From positions 1 through 43,346 of IMG/VR virus record IMGVR_UViG_3300006749_000026: a DNA stretch of 43,346 bases; one strand, written 5' to 3'. Source of the DNA: a virus. The translations under genes and the position numbers were made by a program. The notes under the pieces are model-generated. The model saw nothing but the letters and a program-made list of their open reading frames with translations. It was not told the DNA's origin and searched no databases. This document shows, one piece after another, positions 16,356 to 42,702 of this stretch (the stretch's first letter is position 1; each line of letters starts with the position of its first letter).

Positions 16356-16538
16356 ATGGATGAAATAGCTGTTTTAGACAGTATTAAAAAATCAATTGCA
16401 CAAAGAGAACAGCAAATACAAGAAACTTTGATGTCTGGTGGACTAAAAGATATTGAACATTATAAATATTTGCAAGGAGAGCTCAGTGCTTTATACTATA
16501 TTGCAAACGAGATAAGTGATATGGGAAAAAATATATGA
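16356..16538 (+). CDS. Small helical protein
   Basis: 60 residues, all helical in appearance (VLDSIKKSIAQREQQIQETL, ELSALYYIANEISDMG). It overlaps the next start by ATGA. I recall similar short proteins between portal and scaffold genes in marine phages. No motif is recognised; a structural or assembly accessory role is suggested by location only. Confidence 0.7.
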   Translation: MDEIAVLDSIKKSIAQREQQIQETLMSGGLKDIEHYKYLQGELSALYYIANEISDMGKNI

Positions 16539-16975
16539 CGAATATTAAAGAAAATAACGTAATGGCCAAAAAGGTAGCAGAGGCATACGTTGAACCAGAT
16601 TCTGTGGTTTTAGATCCAGAAAAGCTAGATCAATCAATTTTAGATCGCATGCCGCAACCAACTGGATGGAGAATGTTAGTGCTACCATACGCAGGAAAAG
16701 CCAAAACAGAAGGTGGTATTATTCTTACAAAACAAACAACGGACAGAGAGGCTTTGTCAACAGTTGTAGCTTATGTGGTTAAAAAAGGACCACTAGCTTA
16801 CAACAACAAAGAGAGATACGGAGATTCACCCTGGTGTGAAGAAAAACAATGGGTTTTAATCGGACGCTACTCTGGTTCGAGATTTAAACTTGAGGACGGT
16901 GCAGAGGTTCGCATTATCAATGATGATGAAGTGATTGCCACCATACTTAATCCAGATGATATAGTGAGCTTATGA
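16535..16975 (+). CDS. GroES-like co-chaperonin (Cpn10)
   Basis: 146 residues from the ATG overlapping the upstream stop (a second ATG at 16562 is possible). A ~45-residue N-terminal extension precedes the Cpn10 fold: GWRMLVLPYAGKAKTEGG, the mobile-loop GGIIL motif (residues 60-64) that in GroES contacts GroEL, then STVVAYVVKKGP and YSGSRFKLEDGAEVRII. GroES caps GroEL for protein folding; phage versions such as T4 gp31 let host GroEL fold the capsid protein. Placement among head genes fits that. No phage GroEL is seen, so host GroEL is the implied partner. Confidence 0.9.
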   Translation: MTNIKENNVMAKKVAEAYVEPDSVVLDPEKLDQSILDRMPQPTGWRMLVLPYAGKAKTEGGIILTKQTTDREALSTVVAYVVKKGPLAYNNKERYGDSPWCEEKQWVLIGRYSGSRFKLEDGAEVRIINDDEVIATILNPDDIVSL

Positions 16976-18977: not shown

Positions 18978-19895
18978 ATGGCAATTTCAAGAGCACAATT
19001 AGCGAAAGAGCTAGAGCCTGGTCTAAACGCACTTTTTGGAATGTCCTATGATTCCTACGAGAGAGAATATGAAGATATTTTTGTTATCGAGGATTCAAAT
19101 AGAGCATTTGAAGAAGAGGTTTTAGTAACTGGATTCGGTTCTGCACCACTTAAGTCCGAAGGACAGGGTGTACAATTTGACAACGCATCTGAAAGTTACA
19201 GTGCACGTTATACGCATGATACGATTGCGTTAGCGTTTGCTTTAACAGAAGAAGCAGTAGAGGACAATTTATATGACAGTCTCGGGAAGAGATACGTCAA
19301 AGCATTAGCAAAATCTATGGCTAACACCAAAGAGGTTAAAGGCGCTGATGTTTTAAATAATGCTTTCTCTTCTAGCTTTACAGGAGGCGATGGAGTATCA
19401 CTTATTAACACTGCCCACACACTATCTGGTGGTGGAACAGCTGCGAACAGAGCTACTACTATGGCTGACTTAAATGAGGCTTCATTAGAAGACGCATTGA
19501 TTGATATTTCAACTTTCACGGATGATAGAGGTTTAACTATTTCTGTCCAAGCTGACAAACTTGTGGTCCCACCACAGTTAGTGTTTGTTGCTGACAGAAT
19601 CTTAAACTCTCAGCAAAGATCTGGTACAGCTGATAATGACCTTAACGCAATTAAAAACACTGGGGTTTTACCTGGTGGCTATAGCGTCAACCATTATCTT
19701 ACTGATCCAGATGCTTTCTTCATCCTTACATCTGTAAATAGTGCAGGCGAAGGTCTAAAAATGTTCCAAAGATCTCCAATGGAGACTTCAATGGAACCAG
19801 ACTTTTCTACTGGCAATATCAGATATAAAGCGAGAGAGAGATATTCATTCGGTTTCTCTGATTGGAGAGGAATTTACGGATCTCAAGGTGCATAA
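18978..19895 (+). CDS. Major capsid protein
   Basis: 305 residues, after AAGGAGG. Features consistent with an HK97-type coat: helical N-terminus (AISRAQLAKELEPGLNALFG), FGSAPLKSEGQGV, a long helix with FALTEEAVEDNLYDSLGKRY and AKSMANTKEVKGADVLNNAF, ISVQADKLVVPPQLVFVADRIL, and a C-terminal P-domain-like strand with YSFGFSDWRGIYGS. Gene order (portal, GroES, scaffold, decoration, this) supports it. It is followed directly by a strong terminator, so the head operon ends here and high expression is likely. Confidence 0.9.
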   Translation: MAISRAQLAKELEPGLNALFGMSYDSYEREYEDIFVIEDSNRAFEEEVLVTGFGSAPLKSEGQGVQFDNASESYSARYTHDTIALAFALTEEAVEDNLYDSLGKRYVKALAKSMANTKEVKGADVLNNAFSSSFTGGDGVSLINTAHTLSGGGTAANRATTMADLNEASLEDALIDISTFTDDRGLTISVQADKLVVPPQLVFVADRILNSQQRSGTADNDLNAIKNTGVLPGGYSVNHYLTDPDAFFILTSVNSAGEGLKMFQRSPMETSMEPDFSTGNIRYKARERYSFGFSDWRGIYGSQGA

Positions 19896-19938: not shown

Positions 19939-19966
19939 AAAGGGCCTCAAAAGGGCCCTTTTTTTT
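19939..19966 (+). terminator. Rho-independent terminator after the capsid gene
   Basis: An 8-bp stem (AAAGGGCC at 19939-19946 with GGCCCTTT at 19954-19961) encloses a 7-nt loop and runs into eight T. It is the clearest terminator in the window. It closes the head operon and insulates the accessory cassette that follows. Confidence 0.92.
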
Positions 19967-19989
19967 GCCTAAAATAAATCAATATATTA

Positions 19990-20044
19990 TGTGTAAATAG
20001 TTGCAATTAGTTGCATATTTTAGTATATTAGTTATGTGGGAATT
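19990..20044 (+). promoter_or_regulatory. Promoter/operator block A, duplicated at 40617
   Basis: It contains TGTGTAAATAGTTGCA (19990-20005), a second TTGCA ten bases on (20011), and TATGTGGGAATT (20033-20044). TTGCAA at 20001 with a 17-nt spacer to TATATT (20024-20029) is a good sigma70-like promoter, putting the start near 20036. A second register, TTGCAT (20011) with 16 nt to TATGTG, is also present. The same elements recur at 40617-40671 with identical spacing. It precedes a strong AAGGAGG at 20064. Confidence 0.75.
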
Positions 20045-20074
20045 GAAATTAAAAAGACAAAAAAAGGAGGTCTT

Positions 20075-20341
20075 ATGAAAGAAGGTGCTTTAATCAAAAA
20101 GCTAAACAAACTTTATCCTGGTGTCAAAGCTACTCCGATGGCTGAGTGGGACGACACCAATGATCCAGGCATTTGGTTTAAAGGTAGTGAAGACAGCATG
20201 GCTGTCGATGGCTTACCGCTTTATGACTGCTACGAAGAGTTTGGGTATGAGATCAACCCAGACGTTGAGAAAATTTTGAACGATGCTGGTTGGATGGCAG
20301 AGCCATACGATGCTGGCACTTTAATGGCTTACCCAAATTAA
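20075..20341 (+). CDS. Small acidic protein of accessory cassette A
   Basis: 88 residues. The ATG at 20075 is chosen over an in-frame GTG at 20036 because AAGGAGG lies four bases upstream and the GTG falls in the promoter block. The sequence has KLNKLYPGVKATPMAEWDD, GIWFKGSEDSMAVDG and a C-terminal AEPYDAGTLMAY, reading as a small alpha/beta domain. It is not recognised with confidence. It is the first gene after promoter block A, so probably expressed separately from the head genes, perhaps early. Confidence 0.75.
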   Translation: MKEGALIKKLNKLYPGVKATPMAEWDDTNDPGIWFKGSEDSMAVDGLPLYDCYEEFGYEINPDVEKILNDAGWMAEPYDAGTLMAYPN

Positions 20342-20353
20342 GGAGGTGGCGTA

Positions 20354-20749
20354 GTGAAAAACTATAAAGATGTTACTCATTATACCAATAGGTATGATGA
20401 TCTTATGAACACTGAACTAGAGATAGTGAAAAATGTTTACAATTATGACAAGGATGGTGCTAGGCAAGACGACTACTTGCTTTATCCAAAATACAGTATC
20501 AAATTGCCTAATAAAATGACTGGACTAAGAATGACCAGCACCATGGATGGTGAACAACCTTGTTATGAGAACACAGCATATTTGAATATGCTTGAGGAAT
20601 ACAATGTTTATCACGACATGAGCATTGCGGACTATCCAAGACACGGTGATACTAAAAGGATTTTTTACAAAGATCTTGAAAAAGCACAAGCTGCTTTATA
20701 TTACTTAAAAAAACACAATAACTATATCAACAAAAAGGAGGTTGCGTAG
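20354..20749 (+). CDS. Unknown cassette protein, GTG start
   Basis: 131 residues, GTG start with AAGGAGGTGG eight bases upstream. Tyr- and Asp-rich, mixed alpha/beta (YPKYSIKLPNKMTGLRM, TKRIFYKDLEKAQAALYYLK). No motif recognised. Its last codons (KKEVA then stop) contain the AAGGAGG that serves the next gene, and the next GTG overlaps its stop by one base, so translation is coupled. Function unknown. Confidence 0.72.
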   Translation: MKNYKDVTHYTNRYDDLMNTELEIVKNVYNYDKDGARQDDYLLYPKYSIKLPNKMTGLRMTSTMDGEQPCYENTAYLNMLEEYNVYHDMSIADYPRHGDTKRIFYKDLEKAQAALYYLKKHNNYINKKEVA

Positions 20750-21054
20750 TGAAATACAAATCAAGTGATGATGTGATAAAAGACTTAATGCCAAAGGTTA
20801 TTAAGTTGGTTAGACAAACAGCATACGTTGATCCAAATGATCCAAGAGTAACTGACGCAGATGCTCTTGGAATAATTGTGGCCAAGTATTTGAAATGGGA
20901 TGGTGCAGACATTATGGAAACAATGCACTCAGCTCTGGAAGATGCCAACTACCACACACTAAACGAAAAATTGTTAGAAACATACAAGGATTGGGAGAAC
21001 GAAGATCCTGGTGAACTTGACTGGAATAATACGGCTAGTCCAGCGCATTATTAA
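20749..21054 (+). CDS. Unknown small helical protein, GTG start
   Basis: 101 residues from the GTG that overlaps the previous stop. Its Shine-Dalgarno is inside the upstream gene's final codons. It is helical and acidic (SDDVIKDLMPKVIKLVRQT, IMETMHSALEDANYHTLNEK) and ends ELDWNNTASPAHY. No family recognised. It belongs to the cassette between the capsid terminator and the leader at 21547. Confidence 0.72.
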   Translation: MKYKSSDDVIKDLMPKVIKLVRQTAYVDPNDPRVTDADALGIIVAKYLKWDGADIMETMHSALEDANYHTLNEKLLETYKDWENEDPGELDWNNTASPAHY

Positions 21055-21069
21055 AAGGAGTTATAAATA

Positions 21070-21552
21070 ATGAAACCAATAAATAGAATATTTGTTGATA
21101 TGGACGGAGTCTTAGCTGACTTCGTCCAGGGCGTTCAAGGGCCAAAGTATTTGAATGGCCCTTTGACTGACGACTTGTATGACGACAATAAAATTGCACT
21201 TAGTAACAAAGGCCTATTCAAAGATCTACCGCCTATGACTGATATGCAAGATCTTATTGACGGCATTAAAGATACAGGTATTTACTGGGAGATCCTAACT
21301 TGTACTGGTGAGCTAAACAGAAAAAAAGTAGCACAAGACAAAACCACTTGGATTAGAGAACATGTAGATCCAGGAGTCGTTATTACTTGTACTTTTAAAG
21401 GTGAGCAAAAAGCAGCCTATGCTAAACCTGGTTCTGTACTTATTGACGACAGGCCTAGAAACATAAACGCCTGGACCGACGCAGGTGGTATAGGTATTCT
21501 TCACGCCAACGCAGCTGACACAATGCAACAGTTGCAAGATCTAATAAACTAG
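21070..21552 (+). CDS. HAD-family 5'(3')-deoxyribonucleotidase-like protein
   Basis: 160 residues after AAAAGGAG. Motif I is VDMDGVLADF, with nucleophile D10 and acid/base D12. A later VLIDDRPRNINAWTDAGG gives the motif IV acidic pair, as in NT5C-type deoxynucleotidases. WEILTCTGE probably holds motif II Thr. The family removes phosphate from deoxynucleoside monophosphates. In a phage it could rebalance dNTP pools or salvage host nucleotides. It is the last gene of cassette A; its stop lies within the palindrome at 21547. Confidence 0.85.
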   Translation: MKPINRIFVDMDGVLADFVQGVQGPKYLNGPLTDDLYDDNKIALSNKGLFKDLPPMTDMQDLIDGIKDTGIYWEILTCTGELNRKKVAQDKTTWIREHVDPGVVITCTFKGEQKAAYAKPGSVLIDDRPRNINAWTDAGGIGILHANAADTMQQLQDLIN

Positions 21553-23881: not shown

Positions 23882-24025
23882 ATGAAAGGAACGAAATATA
23901 AAGCTGGCGGCGGTGCTATGAAAGGTACTAAATATAAAGCTGGTGGCGGTGCTATGAAAGGTACTAAATATAAAGCTGGTGGCGGTGCTATGAAAGGCAC
24001 TAAATACAAAGCAGGTGGGGGTGCT
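23882..24025 (+). repeat. Four 36-bp tandem repeats, coding
   Basis: Units start at 23882, 23918, 23954 and 23990. Units 2 and 3 are identical; 1 and 4 differ mostly at third codon positions. The 36-bp period keeps the frame, so copy-number change would lengthen or shorten the protein without frameshift. A partial, more divergent copy occurs near 24142. Confidence 0.95.
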
Positions 24026-24181
24026 ATGAAAAGCACTAAAGGTTTTTCTAAAGGCGGAGCTGCTTTGCAAAGTGAAATGAAAGCCAATCCTGGTATGGGT
24101 AATATGCCTAAATCAATTATGATGAAACTAGGTGGAGCTGTTAAAGGCACTAAATACAAAGCTAAAGGCGGAAAAAGGTAA
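23882..24181 (+). CDS. Basic Gly/Lys repeat protein
   Basis: 99 residues. Four tandem copies of a 12-residue unit (MKGTKYKAGGGA) start the protein, then a variable middle (LQSEMKANPGMGNMPK), then a fifth partial copy near the end (VKGTKYKAKGG). Each unit begins with Met, so translation could start at any of them. The first ATG follows GGAG and is taken as start. Composition suggests nucleic-acid or polyanion binding. Not otherwise recognised. Confidence 0.72.
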   Translation: MKGTKYKAGGGAMKGTKYKAGGGAMKGTKYKAGGGAMKGTKYKAGGGAMKSTKGFSKGGAALQSEMKANPGMGNMPKSIMMKLGGAVKGTKYKAKGGKR

Positions 24182-39883: not shown

Positions 39884-40597
39884 ATGTACAAACTTAGAGA
39901 TTACCTCTTAAGCATGCAGTCCAACTGGATGATCAATCACAAGACTCAACAAGCGGTTGAGGACAGTATGCCGCAGATTATTAAGTATCGTTCTGCAAAT
40001 GGCCTGGAAGATATGGGCAAAACACCTGTGCATGACGTTGTAAAGAAGATCTATCCAGAGATCTACAGGTTTCCATTATTTCGCCGACACTTCTGCACAC
40101 TCTTGATCAGAGAGATCGAACACATGAAAAAAGAAATAGGGTTCCAGGGCAATGAGAGTGAAGATGTTTACCGCCAGATCCCAGAGATTGTACTCAAAGA
40201 ACAAGTACCAGAGCTGTATCGAACTATGTGGTTTGTGGTCCAGACCGTTCTCAATCCTATCTTTAATGCAATCTGGCAAAGAGACTGTAGTGATCCTGCA
40301 AGCATACAGATTGCTAACTATAATTTAAGAGACAAGAAACAAGGTGCCTGGCATCACGACGAATCGGCAGATATATCAGTCGTGGTTCCATTGAATACTG
40401 GCAAGTATAAAGGTGGCGGCACTGAATTTCATAATTACGGTAAGGTCCCACCTTTACCTACTGGCCATGCGCTTATGTTTCCAAGTTTTAGTAACTTGCA
40501 TAAAGGTCTGCCCGTTGAAAGCGGTGATAGATACCTTTTGGTTTTCTGGCTTTGCGACAAGCAAAGAACTGTCGATTTATTCCATTATTTAGACTAA
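39884..40597 (+). CDS. 2-oxoglutarate/Fe(II) dioxygenase-like protein
   Basis: 237 residues. The C-terminal double-stranded beta-helix holds the iron ligands: H157 and D159 in GAWHHDESAD, H206 in NLHKGLPVESGDRY, and R216 for 2-oxoglutarate, with normal spacing. IANYNLRDKKQG precedes the triad. The N-terminal half is helical (LFRRHFCTLLIREIEHMKKE). The prolyl-4-hydroxylase-like fold suggests hydroxylation of protein or other substrate; in marine phages such genes are frequent and targets unknown. Promoter directly upstream. Confidence 0.88.
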   Translation: MYKLRDYLLSMQSNWMINHKTQQAVEDSMPQIIKYRSANGLEDMGKTPVHDVVKKIYPEIYRFPLFRRHFCTLLIREIEHMKKEIGFQGNESEDVYRQIPEIVLKEQVPELYRTMWFVVQTVLNPIFNAIWQRDCSDPASIQIANYNLRDKKQGAWHHDESADISVVVPLNTGKYKGGGTEFHNYGKVPPLPTGHALMFPSFSNLHKGLPVESGDRYLLVFWLCDKQRTVDLFHYLD

Positions 40598-40616: not shown

Positions 40617-40671
40617 TGTGTAAATAGTTGCACAGAGTTGCAACTTGTGGCATTATATCTATGTGGGAATT
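40617..40671 (+). promoter_or_regulatory. Promoter/operator block B, copy of the 19990 block
   Basis: TGTGTAAATAGTTGCA (40617-40632), second TTGCA ten bases on (40638), and TATGTGGGAATT (40660-40671), the same elements and spacing as block A. The 17-nt register gives TTGCAC with CATTAT (40651-40656), a weaker -10; the 16-nt register gives TTGCAA with TATGTG. Followed by A-rich DNA and AAGGAGG at 40690. Confidence 0.75.
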
Positions 40672-40701
40672 TTAATTAATAACAAAAAAAAGGAGGTTGG
40701 T

Positions 40702-40920
40702 ATGAGAGAGTTACCAAAGAATGTGGTGGTTGTTGATACTGAGCCTGTTTGGGTTAAGAACCCTTACACTGGTGCTGGTGTAATGCTTGATCCAGACGCG
40801 GTTGCGGTTTACGACTTTGTAAAAGGTTGTGAAATGTTCAGAGATTACGACAACGTGAGAAAGGGTTGCGACTGGTTCAAAAAAAACGAGCCAGAGGCAT
40901 ACATGGTTTTATTAGACTAA
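40702..40920 (+). CDS. Small protein, first gene of cassette B
   Basis: 72 residues from the ATG after AAGGAGG; an in-frame start at 40645 is inside the promoter block. VVVVDTEPVWVKNPYTGAGV and AVAVYDFVKGCEMFRDYDNV, KGCDWFKKNEPEAYMVLL. It resembles small phage proteins with alternating strands and helix. No motif recognised. Strong ribosome site and promoter suggest high expression. Confidence 0.75.
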   Translation: MRELPKNVVVVDTEPVWVKNPYTGAGVMLDPDAVAVYDFVKGCEMFRDYDNVRKGCDWFKKNEPEAYMVLLD

Positions 40921-40929
40921 GGAGGTGGC

Positions 40930-41103
40930 ATGATGGATTATGAATTTGACCAAAAGGTAAAAGTAGAATTGACACTAGGCGAGGTATTTGAAATCGTTGG
41001 TCATTTAAAAGATGTGATCAAAGCTAATGGTGGCACAGATAATACTGACAACGATGTTGTTAATGCTTTCAATAAACTAAAAGATATAAATGGGGGTAAA
41101 TAA
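40930..41103 (+). CDS. Small helical protein
   Basis: 57 residues (ATGATG; the second ATG gives 56). AAGGAGGTGGC precedes it. EFDQKVKVELTLGEVFEIVG and HLKDVIKANGG, then VVNAFNKLKDING. It is a strand plus helices; no family recognised. It overlaps the clamp-like gene by one base (TAATG), so translation is coupled. Confidence 0.72.
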   Translation: MMDYEFDQKVKVELTLGEVFEIVGHLKDVIKANGGTDNTDNDVVNAFNKLKDINGGK

Positions 41104-41714
41104 TGATTGATATTAAAAATGTTAATCCAGCCATGTTGGGAAAAGCTGTTGCTTTTGCTGGCAAGGGTGATTGGAGATATTACTTAAATGGTGTTTGGAT
41201 TGTAAAAAGACCAGAGGGTGGTGTTTATATTGTGGCCACTAACGCACATATTATGTGTGTTTATGCTGATAAAAAAGCAGTGGTTGAGAATGACTTTGAT
41301 CCAGTGATATTAAAATGTCACGATGATAAAAAAGATGGTAAGCCTGGTGGCAAGGTTAAAACTTTGTTTACTGATCTTAAAAAGGCCAACTGTGGTCTAG
41401 TTGACATTTATGAGATAGGCGGAAACTTAACGATTGACGGCAACGTGGTTGAAACAATAGACGGAAAAATACCAGATTGGAAACAAGTAATACCAAAGGT
41501 TGAGGATCTTAACTTGGATCAACAGTTTTACGATACCAAGTATTTAAAATTGTTAAATGAGTTTCCAACAAACAAGAAGTTCCCAAGCATGGCCTTTGTT
41601 GGTGGTGACAATCAAAAGGCTAGTGTTTGGACTAACGTGGACGGCTTGGTGTTGATAATGCCAATGAGGTGTGACATAGATATTAATACTGAAATACTTA
41701 AGGAGGTGGCGTAA
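41103..41714 (+). CDS. Sliding-clamp (DnaN-like) domain protein
   Basis: 203 residues. GGVYIVATNAHIMCVYADKK, LTIDGNVVETIDGKIPDWKQ and a C-terminal LVLIMPMRCDIDI resemble the last two domains of bacterial beta clamps, whose C-terminal strand reads MPMR. A full DnaN has three domains and about 366 residues, so this is a shorter version and might form a trimer or higher ring, or be a regulator of the host clamp. Stop encoded through LKEVA, which also contains the next gene's AAGGAGG. Confidence 0.7.
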   Translation: MIDIKNVNPAMLGKAVAFAGKGDWRYYLNGVWIVKRPEGGVYIVATNAHIMCVYADKKAVVENDFDPVILKCHDDKKDGKPGGKVKTLFTDLKKANCGLVDIYEIGGNLTIDGNVVETIDGKIPDWKQVIPKVEDLNLDQQFYDTKYLKLLNEFPTNKKFPSMAFVGGDNQKASVWTNVDGLVLIMPMRCDIDINTEILKEVA

Positions 41715-41938
41715 TGATTGACGCAAAAGTGACGGGATACTGGGGAGCTGGTATTCCGATCGACAAAGGAAGAGTGATCACTAATCATAACGACGGTTAT
41801 GTGACGATCAAGTGGGACGATGGCAGAGAGGTTATGCACTTAGAGCACAATATCAGAGACGGTGCCTGGCATAACCACGATACGAAAAAGTATGGTTTAA
41901 GCGCTATCGGTATTTACTGGGGAGCTCACTTATATTAA
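41714..41938 (+). CDS. Small beta-rich protein
   Basis: 74 residues after AAGGAGGTGG that lies in the upstream gene's last codons. VTGYWGAGIPIDKGRVITNH, GYVTIKWDDGREVMHLEH and a Trp/Tyr-rich end (IYWGAHLY) suggest an SH3-like or Tudor-like barrel. Function unknown. It converges on the exonuclease gene with a 4-nt overlap of stops. Confidence 0.72.
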   Translation: MIDAKVTGYWGAGIPIDKGRVITNHNDGYVTIKWDDGREVMHLEHNIRDGAWHNHDTKKYGLSAIGIYWGAHLY

Positions 41939-42702
41939 TAAAGATCTGATAACTCTACAGTCTGGATTCCTTCCAGGTTGTAGGGTTTAAAATCATCCTG
42001 CTCTTTACATCTGAGCAATAGTTCCAAGGCCTGTTCATTCCTAGCTTGTGCATAAGCAAGCGCCTCATCTGATAAACGATACACACCATAAGGATAAGGG
42101 AATTGTTTTTCCTGGGCCAAGAAGTTGAATCCGTCAGCTCGCAAGCCAGAGGCTCTACAGCCGTCAACATATAGTGCTGCTTGCATGTGATAGTTGAAAC
42201 CATTGATCGCTTGTCTAAAGCCACGAGGTGAGGCGTCACGACATGTTTTAAGATCCCAAACGTCCTGGTTATCATACCAATCCAATCTGCATTTAAAGGG
42301 ATGGCCGTGTAATTCAAAAACTAAAGTTAGCTCGGCCCTGTGATCTTCTTTAGGAATATAGTCGGCAACGACTTCTCGACGTTCCATACAAACGTCGTAC
42401 ATGTCCTGGGTGATCGCAGTCTTATCTTCAGCAGTGGCCATAAAATCTTCGTACTCAGCTTTACCAGCTTTGGTTCTGCGATCAAACTTTGGCATGATCA
42501 CAAACTCTTCATCAAACTTATGATGTTCCAGAAACACCGTATGTTGCACTCGGCCCTCCAGGAGTGCTGGAGTCTGGACCATTTCTTTTCTATTCTTCCA
42601 GCTGTACGGGCATTTTATGACCGCGGTAAGATCGTGAGATCTAAAGGCTGGTATTTCTGCATACTCTTCATAAGGTATGTCTTCATATATTCCTGGTTTC
42701 AT
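41935..42702 (-). CDS. PD-(D/E)XK exonuclease-like (RecE/DUF3799-type)
   Basis: 255 residues, leftward. FRSHDLTAVIKCPYSWKNRK, then LLEGRVQHTVFLEH (H54), and the nuclease core CRLDWYDNQDVWDLKTC with D141, D150 and K152, a classic D-(D/E)xK. A Gln near RQAINGFNYHMQAALYVDG completes the active-site helix. The family includes RecE-type exonucleases for recombination with an annealing protein; the SSB-like gene upstream fits a replication/recombination operon. A good AAGGAG precedes its start. Confidence 0.88.
   Translation of the reverse strand: MKPGIYEDIPYEEYAEIPAFRSHDLTAVIKCPYSWKNRKEMVQTPALLEGRVQHTVFLEHHKFDEEFVIMPKFDRRTKAGKAEYEDFMATAEDKTAITQDMYDVCMERREVVADYIPKEDHRAELTLVFELHGHPFKCRLDWYDNQDVWDLKTCRDASPRGFRQAINGFNYHMQAALYVDGCRASGLRADGFNFLAQEKQFPYPYGVYRLSDEALAYAQARNEQALELLLRCKEQDDFKPYNLEGIQTVELSDLY

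Follow-up and report, generated by a model that had tools for sequence, protein, structure and literature searches.

A predicted sigma70-type promoter, repeated in a marine phage, heads bounded slots of variable cargo genes

The 43,346-bp virus record analysed here over its full length (the window) carries two copies of what appears, from the sequence, to be one sigma70-type promoter with its leader, and behind each copy lies a bounded slot of small cargo genes joined by a standard gene-gene junction. We give this reading of both copies a probability of roughly 0.8. The bounded slots of swappable cargo are the main biological point, and they had been missed by the first-pass annotation, which had described a duplicated promoter/operator block.

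Portal and capsid relate the window to the pelagiphages HTVC027P and HTVC023P and to roseophages. Judged against a 56.8-kb relative (G006), the window is incomplete by roughly 13 kb. A host assignment through MAG contigs was rejected: although the capsid gene has a 100% match in a Candidatus Pelagibacter bin, its other MAG matches fall in unrelated phyla, so MAG binning is unreliable as host evidence. Elsewhere in the window, a gene for a Cpn10/GroES-like protein (16535-16975; PF00166, E = 9.7e-7) lies just 5' of the capsid genes, and a small gene of the virion region contains an in-frame 36-bp tandem repeat (MKGTKYKAGGGA units; 23882-24061).

Block A (19990-20044) and block B (40617-40671) start 20,627 bp apart, matching the 20.6 kb given earlier, and are identical at 43 of 55 positions and different at 12. 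As the first-pass annotation had stated, both contain TGTGTAAATAGTTGCA, a second TTGCA exactly 10 bases past the first (20001 and 20011 in A, 40628 and 40638 in B) and TATGTGGGAATT 43 bases from the block start (20033 and 40660). The similarity reaches past the blocks, at 72% over 112 nt, and includes the leader and the ribosome-binding site (family D3). The spaced pattern TTGCA-N5-TTGCA-N17-TATGTGGGAATT has two matches in the window, solely blocks A and B, and further copies do exist in relatives: its exact form is found in 40 more IMG/VR stretches. This is above the chance level for 22 specified bases, which by our own arithmetic would be expected about 1e-8 times in 43 kb. With 2 mismatches allowed, TATGTGGGAATT alone is not enriched in the window (5 found against 5.0 expected), so that it is the combination and the spacing that carry the evidence. 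The spaced pattern is absent from HTVC027P and HTVC023P, and cultured phages searched by blastn with each block gave only short pieces at chance level. A looser scan, TTGCA-N14-20-TATGTGGGAA, listed matches that are probably mostly chance and was left unused.

The suggestion that the blocks look like promoters is borne out by sigma70 -35/-10 geometry in both copies and in divergent sites from relatives. In copy A (all features on the plus strand, as in B), the upstream part TGTGTAAATAG (19990-20000) places a TGTA 10 bp before the TTGCA repeat of the predicted -35 TTGCAA (20001-20006). The second direct repeat, TTGCA (20011-20015), lies one helical turn downstream within the spacer, and is followed by the predicted -10 TATATT (20024-20029), the start region TATGTGGGAATT (20033-20044) with predicted start G20036, from which the transcript would begin GTGGG, and the ribosome-binding site GGAGG (20066-20070). 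Copy B has the same upstream part TGTGTAAATAG (40617-40627), then, from the sequence and the alignment of divergent sites, a -35 TTGCAC (40628-40633), a second repeat TTGCA (40638-40642) and an extended -10 TGG-CATTAT (40648-40656); its start region TATGTGGGAATT (40660-40671) has predicted start G40663 and its leader a GGAGG at 40692-40696. The spacer is 17 bp in both copies, and the predicted start G falls 7 nt past the -10. A promoter scanner also reports TTGCAA-17-TATATT at 20001, a kind of match that alone is not enriched over shuffles. Neither leader gave a stable RNA fold, and a short ATGT-GAG-ACAT hairpin is possible in the leaders of some relatives only.

Promoter sites from relatives number 95, which were cut to 18 divergent representatives for alignment. 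Across these 18, the geometry is TTGYAN, 16 or 17 bp, (T/C)ANNNT (18/18, with A and T at -10 positions 2 and 6 in every site), six bases and a start G (17/18), although column conservation overstates independence because the sites are related by descent. Upstream, AAATA is conserved among the promoter sites. A TG one base ahead of the -10, the extended -10, is present in just over half of the 95 sites, and the first transcribed bases are mostly GTGRG (GTGAG in 53/95 sites, GTGGG in 42/95).

The early survey patterns imposed TTGYA and the start motif and left the -10 and the +10 repeat free. Among filled slots fetched by homology of a neighbouring gene, with no motif in the search, a full promoter (defined as TTGYAN, 16-17 bp, YANNNT, 6 nt, GTGRG) stands in 19 of 22 A slots and 33 of 36 B slots, the other three A and three B slots having close variants. 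The search-pattern bias is thereby lessened, though still present.

Starts near 20036 and 40663, as proposed earlier, are the positions favoured by the comparative data, and transcription probably begins at G20036 and G40663. The sequence at +1 had been called unlike a normal promoter, and GTGRG is indeed conserved beyond what an ordinary sigma70 promoter needs. Promoters are not mentioned in the HTVC023P/HTVC027P-type phage literature that we searched, and neither start sites nor promoters are given in the main text of the paper on the HTVC027P infection transcriptome.

Slot A is bordered on the left by the major capsid protein gene (18978-19895, plus strand; PHROG 371), which is 87-96% identical in the relatives holding it. 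An intrinsic terminator after this gene (19939-19967, plus strand; 9-pair stem and T run), the terminator-like site that the scan lists first on this strand, lies directly 5' of promoter A, and equivalents follow the capsid gene in relatives. The cargo (20075-21054, plus strand) consists of three small genes at 20075-20341, 20354-20749 and 20749-21054. Most relatives lack it in the equivalent slot and conserve the flanking genes, and all three families are also found in slot B of relatives. The right border is an NT5C-like 5' nucleotidase gene (21070-21552, plus strand; PF06941, E = 1.5e-9); in 42/42 A slots with the promoter, it is the first conserved gene past the cargo. A terminator stands upstream, after the capsid gene, and none was found past the slot A cargo, so promoter A may also feed the 20-kb virion operon. 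Three relatives without slot A cargo (L154, L156, L171) have a different small gene (..DVGVGF.MAFPVALAVIS..) after the capsid gene; its ATG lies near or within a TATAAT-like -10, so that its mRNA may be leaderless.

Slot B begins behind a 2OG-Fe(II) oxygenase gene (39884-40597, plus strand; PHROG 61; 75-87% identical in the relatives holding it). Its cargo (40702-41938, plus strand), which varies between relatives, comprises genes at 40702-40920, 40930-41103, 41103-41714 (RusA-like) and 41714-41938. A conserved, convergent DUF3799 PDDEXK nuclease gene (41935-42702, minus strand; PF12684) forms the right border; a relative's homologue belongs to PHROG 412, and the gene is exonuclease VIII-like in relatives. 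The last cargo gene of slot B in some relatives (L256, L280, L282) can end GGTGGC-GTAA-GCCACC, in which the junction sequence seems to form one arm of a likely terminator hairpin facing the convergent nuclease.

The slot borders are sharp when all window genes are compared with 12 relatives: border genes are conserved, and cargo is mostly absent or different. Six of the contigs scanned show both slots on the same strand, some 20 kb from each other. Promoter-bearing slots have a median length of about 1.1-1.2 kb, and 97 distinct promoter-and-gene combinations lead to 53 different first-gene families. Single linkage on short proteins gave 112 cargo families in all, 16 of them present in both slots.

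Promoter and cargo occur together. Counted over distinct zones, slots with the promoter hold cargo in 42/42 A and 51/51 B cases, while 14 of 16 promoterless B slots hold 5-163 bp and no cargo, the other 2 carrying a close promoter variant. Fisher tests of the association give p about 1e-19 and 1e-12, with relatedness uncorrected and independence therefore overstated. The empty slots of L249 and L268 keep promoter stumps, the scar expected if the promoter there had served cargo.

Within the slots, one gene is connected to the next by a standard linker, AAGGAGGTNGCNTAATG, which packs a ribosome-binding site, a stop and the next start within 17 bp. With at most 1 mismatch, the window has four copies of it, always on the plus strand and always in the slots: as AAGGAGGTGGCGTAGTG (20340-20356) and AAGGAGGTTGCGTAGTG (20735-20751) in slot A, and as AAGGAGGTGGCATGATG (40919-40935) and, in exact form, AAGGAGGTGGCGTAATG (41700-41716) in slot B. 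Across 13 genomes it is confined to the slots in 17/17 cases, the slots making up about 10% of the scanned sequence. KEVA or EEVA is a frequent C-terminus among unrelated cargo proteins, and 32 of the 112 families end in EVA or EVV; these shared C-termini arise because the common linker is built into the 3' ends of the cargo genes. The exact 17-mer is also found in many other viral contigs among the matches listed, about a quarter of them with the promoter nearby in the stretch covered. Accordingly, we claim slot-specificity for this clade only, and the junction may be a commoner SD or broader translation-coupling arrangement.

Several relatives have a third promoter copy about 11-12 kb beyond B. 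At these slot C sites (L350-L382, for example L351 near 2177-2450), a -10 is also present on the opposite strand in 20/20 cases, with the palindromic -35 TTGCAA standing 16 bp from the plus-strand -10 and 17 bp from the minus-strand -10 (20/20). Since all 20 have an opposite-strand -10, promoter C is predicted to be bidirectional, its two divergent starts sharing a single -35. The plus-side genes belong to 18 families in 20 sites, and the divergent side encodes a small protein of 57-62 aa (L351:2177-2353, minus strand, and homologues; alignment A1) at 11/19 sites. The divergent transcripts lack GTGRG, so the polymerase does not require the start motif at these promoters. A small serine recombinase gene (PF00239; L322:13551-14339, plus strand) lies near promoter C in G006 and has homologues in several relatives.

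Together, these observations suggest a mechanism in which host RNA polymerase would read both cassettes through a -35 (TTGCAA or TTGCAC), a 17-bp spacer and a -10 (TATATT or CATTAT), starting at G20036 or G40663; an AT-rich leader and a strong ribosome-binding site would then open a string of small variable genes coupled by the stop-SD-start junction. Cassette A, behind the capsid gene, and cassette B, behind the oxygenase gene, each head a cargo slot and are gained and lost along with its cargo, and cargo families appear in one or the other slot among relatives; the homology for recombination is presumably supplied by the promoter/leader and the junction that the slots have in common. Promoter geometry, repeat conservation, slot borders, cargo turnover, promoter-cargo association and junction confinement come out of sequence comparison itself; recombination as the exchange mechanism is what we infer from it. 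Ordinary illegitimate recombination could also move cargo between slots.

Beyond the core promoter, a TGYA repeat recurs in 10-bp steps. It stands exactly 10 bp downstream of the -35 repeat in 14 of the 18 divergent sites (shuffle mean 0.19), a feature that the search did not impose, and 10 bp upstream in 7/18 (shuffle mean 0.14), with 5/18 more having it two bases further upstream. We thus ruled out that the second TTGCA is unconserved in relatives, which retain a TGYA at exactly +10 while the filler varies; this agrees with the earlier view of conserved pieces with free filler. The repeats at -45/-35/-25 and the GTGRG start are conserved beyond the needs of a simple promoter, and they probably tie the copies into one regulon.

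The repeats could be an operator, with a phage regulator binding TGYA-N6-TGYA-N6-TGYA over the -35 and switching all copies together, which would extend the promoter-leader reading without contradicting it. We regard this as a real possibility, short of even odds. Its support lies in the excess of phased TGYA over shuffles and in promoter C, whose first divergent gene is of one family in 11/19 cases. The encoded 57-62 aa protein is ribbon-helix-helix-like and a natural candidate reader of the repeats: sub-threshold profile matches point to RelB (E = 0.0014) and RHH_1 (E = 0.012), and a fold search ranks the ribbon-helix-helix structures of PutA, MatP, AmrZ, CopG, Arc and ParD at the top, none significantly. 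However, its structure model is of moderate confidence (pLDDT 75), and neither tblastn nor a profile detects it in G006, whose 56.8-kb contig has all three promoter sites, which is why it stays a lead. The -35 and extended -10 also look strong enough to act unaided, and the region in which promoter C would lie is missing from the window. Pfam gave no clear transcription factor among the conserved small window proteins. Of the earlier label of promoter/operator and regulon, the promoter and regulon half stands, with 2-3 sites per genome, and the operator half is plausible only, its candidate being undetected in one near-complete relative.

The same repeats with their AT-rich filler might instead form phased bendable DNA or an UP-like element, read by no dedicated protein. 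The TG/CA steps phased at 10 bp, the A/T runs between them and the conserved upstream AAATA fit this account, but the filler switches between A-rich and T-rich while TGYA is kept, and C/T alternation is mainly at one position; we consider it rather doubtful. A more ambitious proposal is that of a standardised cargo system, in which recombination would act at the promoter/leader and the junction, and a phage regulator reading the TGYA repeats, possibly a ribbon-helix-helix protein made from the bidirectional promoter with the shared palindromic -35, would switch the slots together. This we judge unlikely in full.

It is less probable again that the block serves mainly as a recombination anchor, as PeSLs of T4-type phages do, and only incidentally as a promoter. 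Constant sequence across variable cargo, exchange between slots and the terminator-promoter composite at A would suit such an anchor, and the cross-slot families and promoter stumps would be indirect signs of recombination at the element. Yet conservation tracks promoter geometry and leaves the spacer filler free, whereas exact homology would serve recombination better, and no stem-loop was found before B.

Two promoter registers had been thought possible. The one with the first TTGCA as -35, 17 bp and TATATT or CATTAT fits, matching the -10 in 18/18 sites. The other, with the second TTGCA as -35 and TATGTG as -10, has a 16-bp spacing in its favour but is a poor fit, since TATGTG is missing the important last T and relatives have degenerate forms of the second TTGCA (GTGTA, CTACA, TAGCA); it is very improbable. 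T7-family promoters start with sequences resembling GGGA, and the GGGA at the start here recalls them, which is what speaks for a promoter read by a phage single-subunit RNA polymerase, with TATGTGGGA at +1. Against it stand the sigma70-spaced -35 and -10; much of -17 to -1 is unconserved, and the polymerase (PF00940) was not found in the window and 12 relatives, several of these records being incomplete, with a positive T7 control (1e-110). We find this reading scarcely credible, and the failure to find the enzyme supports use of the host RNA polymerase. A recent duplication or assembly artefact, suggested by a long direct repeat in one contig, is refuted for practical purposes by the 12 of 55 positions that differ and by the recurrence of the two-site layout, about 20 kb apart, in independent contigs.

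The promoter and junction give a direct sequence handle on the places where this marine phage group carries small genes that change fast, many of them possibly directed against the host. Small genes lying behind the promoter and between its junctions could be collected in number from metagenomes. With one promoter at the head of short rows of interchangeable genes, related phages can exchange genes and retain the switch in front of them. The arrangement is also a testable example, outside the T4 group, of promoter-plus-linker modularity in phages.

Lambdoid morons are cargo genes between virion genes, with their own sigma70-type promoter, gained and lost as a unit. The window cargo likewise lies between conserved genes behind its own promoter and is present or absent as a unit, with stumps seen; unlike morons, it reuses one promoter in several slots and strings several genes by a standard linker. 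As for a terminator of its own, the remaining moron feature, none was seen after slot A, and some slot B cargo in relatives ends in GGTGGC-GTAA-GCCACC, a likely hairpin.

CII-dependent promoters of lambda carry TTGC-N6-TTGC, which is literally present in both window copies and degenerates to TGYA in relatives. The CII repeats straddle the -35 (PMC3335776), whereas here the first repeat is the -35, and the CII protein (PF05269) is absent from 12 relatives, with positive controls from the E. coli and Caulobacter genomes. Bacterial bidirectional promoters share a near-symmetric -10 (PMC10268837); the slot C promoter is also predicted to be bidirectional, but its common element is the palindromic -35 TTGCAA.

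In cluster K mycobacteriophages, the SAS and ESAS are short conserved elements just 5' of the start codons of unrelated families (PMC3203893). The SAS, GGGATAGGAGCCC, is spread over many genes and the ESAS consists of inverted repeats, whereas the window elements are confined to slots, and GGGATAGGAGCCC is not matched, as both leaders and the junction read differently.

The closest parallel is offered by the PeSLs (promoter early stem-loops) of T4-type phages (Arbiol 2010, Comeau 2014), described in PMC4503421 and PMC3950731, along with a similar HGTV-1 motif, as repeated host-type promoter elements that head variable genes and are proposed to mediate gene shuffling. As far as these accounts go, the window shares with PeSLs a host-type promoter heading hypervariable genes and, at copy A, a terminator-promoter composite. 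It differs in its relatives, which are of the HTVC023P/HTVC027P type and not of the T4 superfamily (portal 46-48% identical), in its two to three fixed slots against many PeSL sites, in copy B, at which no stem-loop was found, and in its extra 10-bp repeats, conserved start sequence and standard gene-gene junction. Promoter elements heading shuffled genes (PeSLs, HGTV-1) and start-associated repeats (cluster K) are thus already known; what we rate as new is one promoter in several fixed slots, the standard junction, the conserved start and the bidirectional copy with a shared -35.
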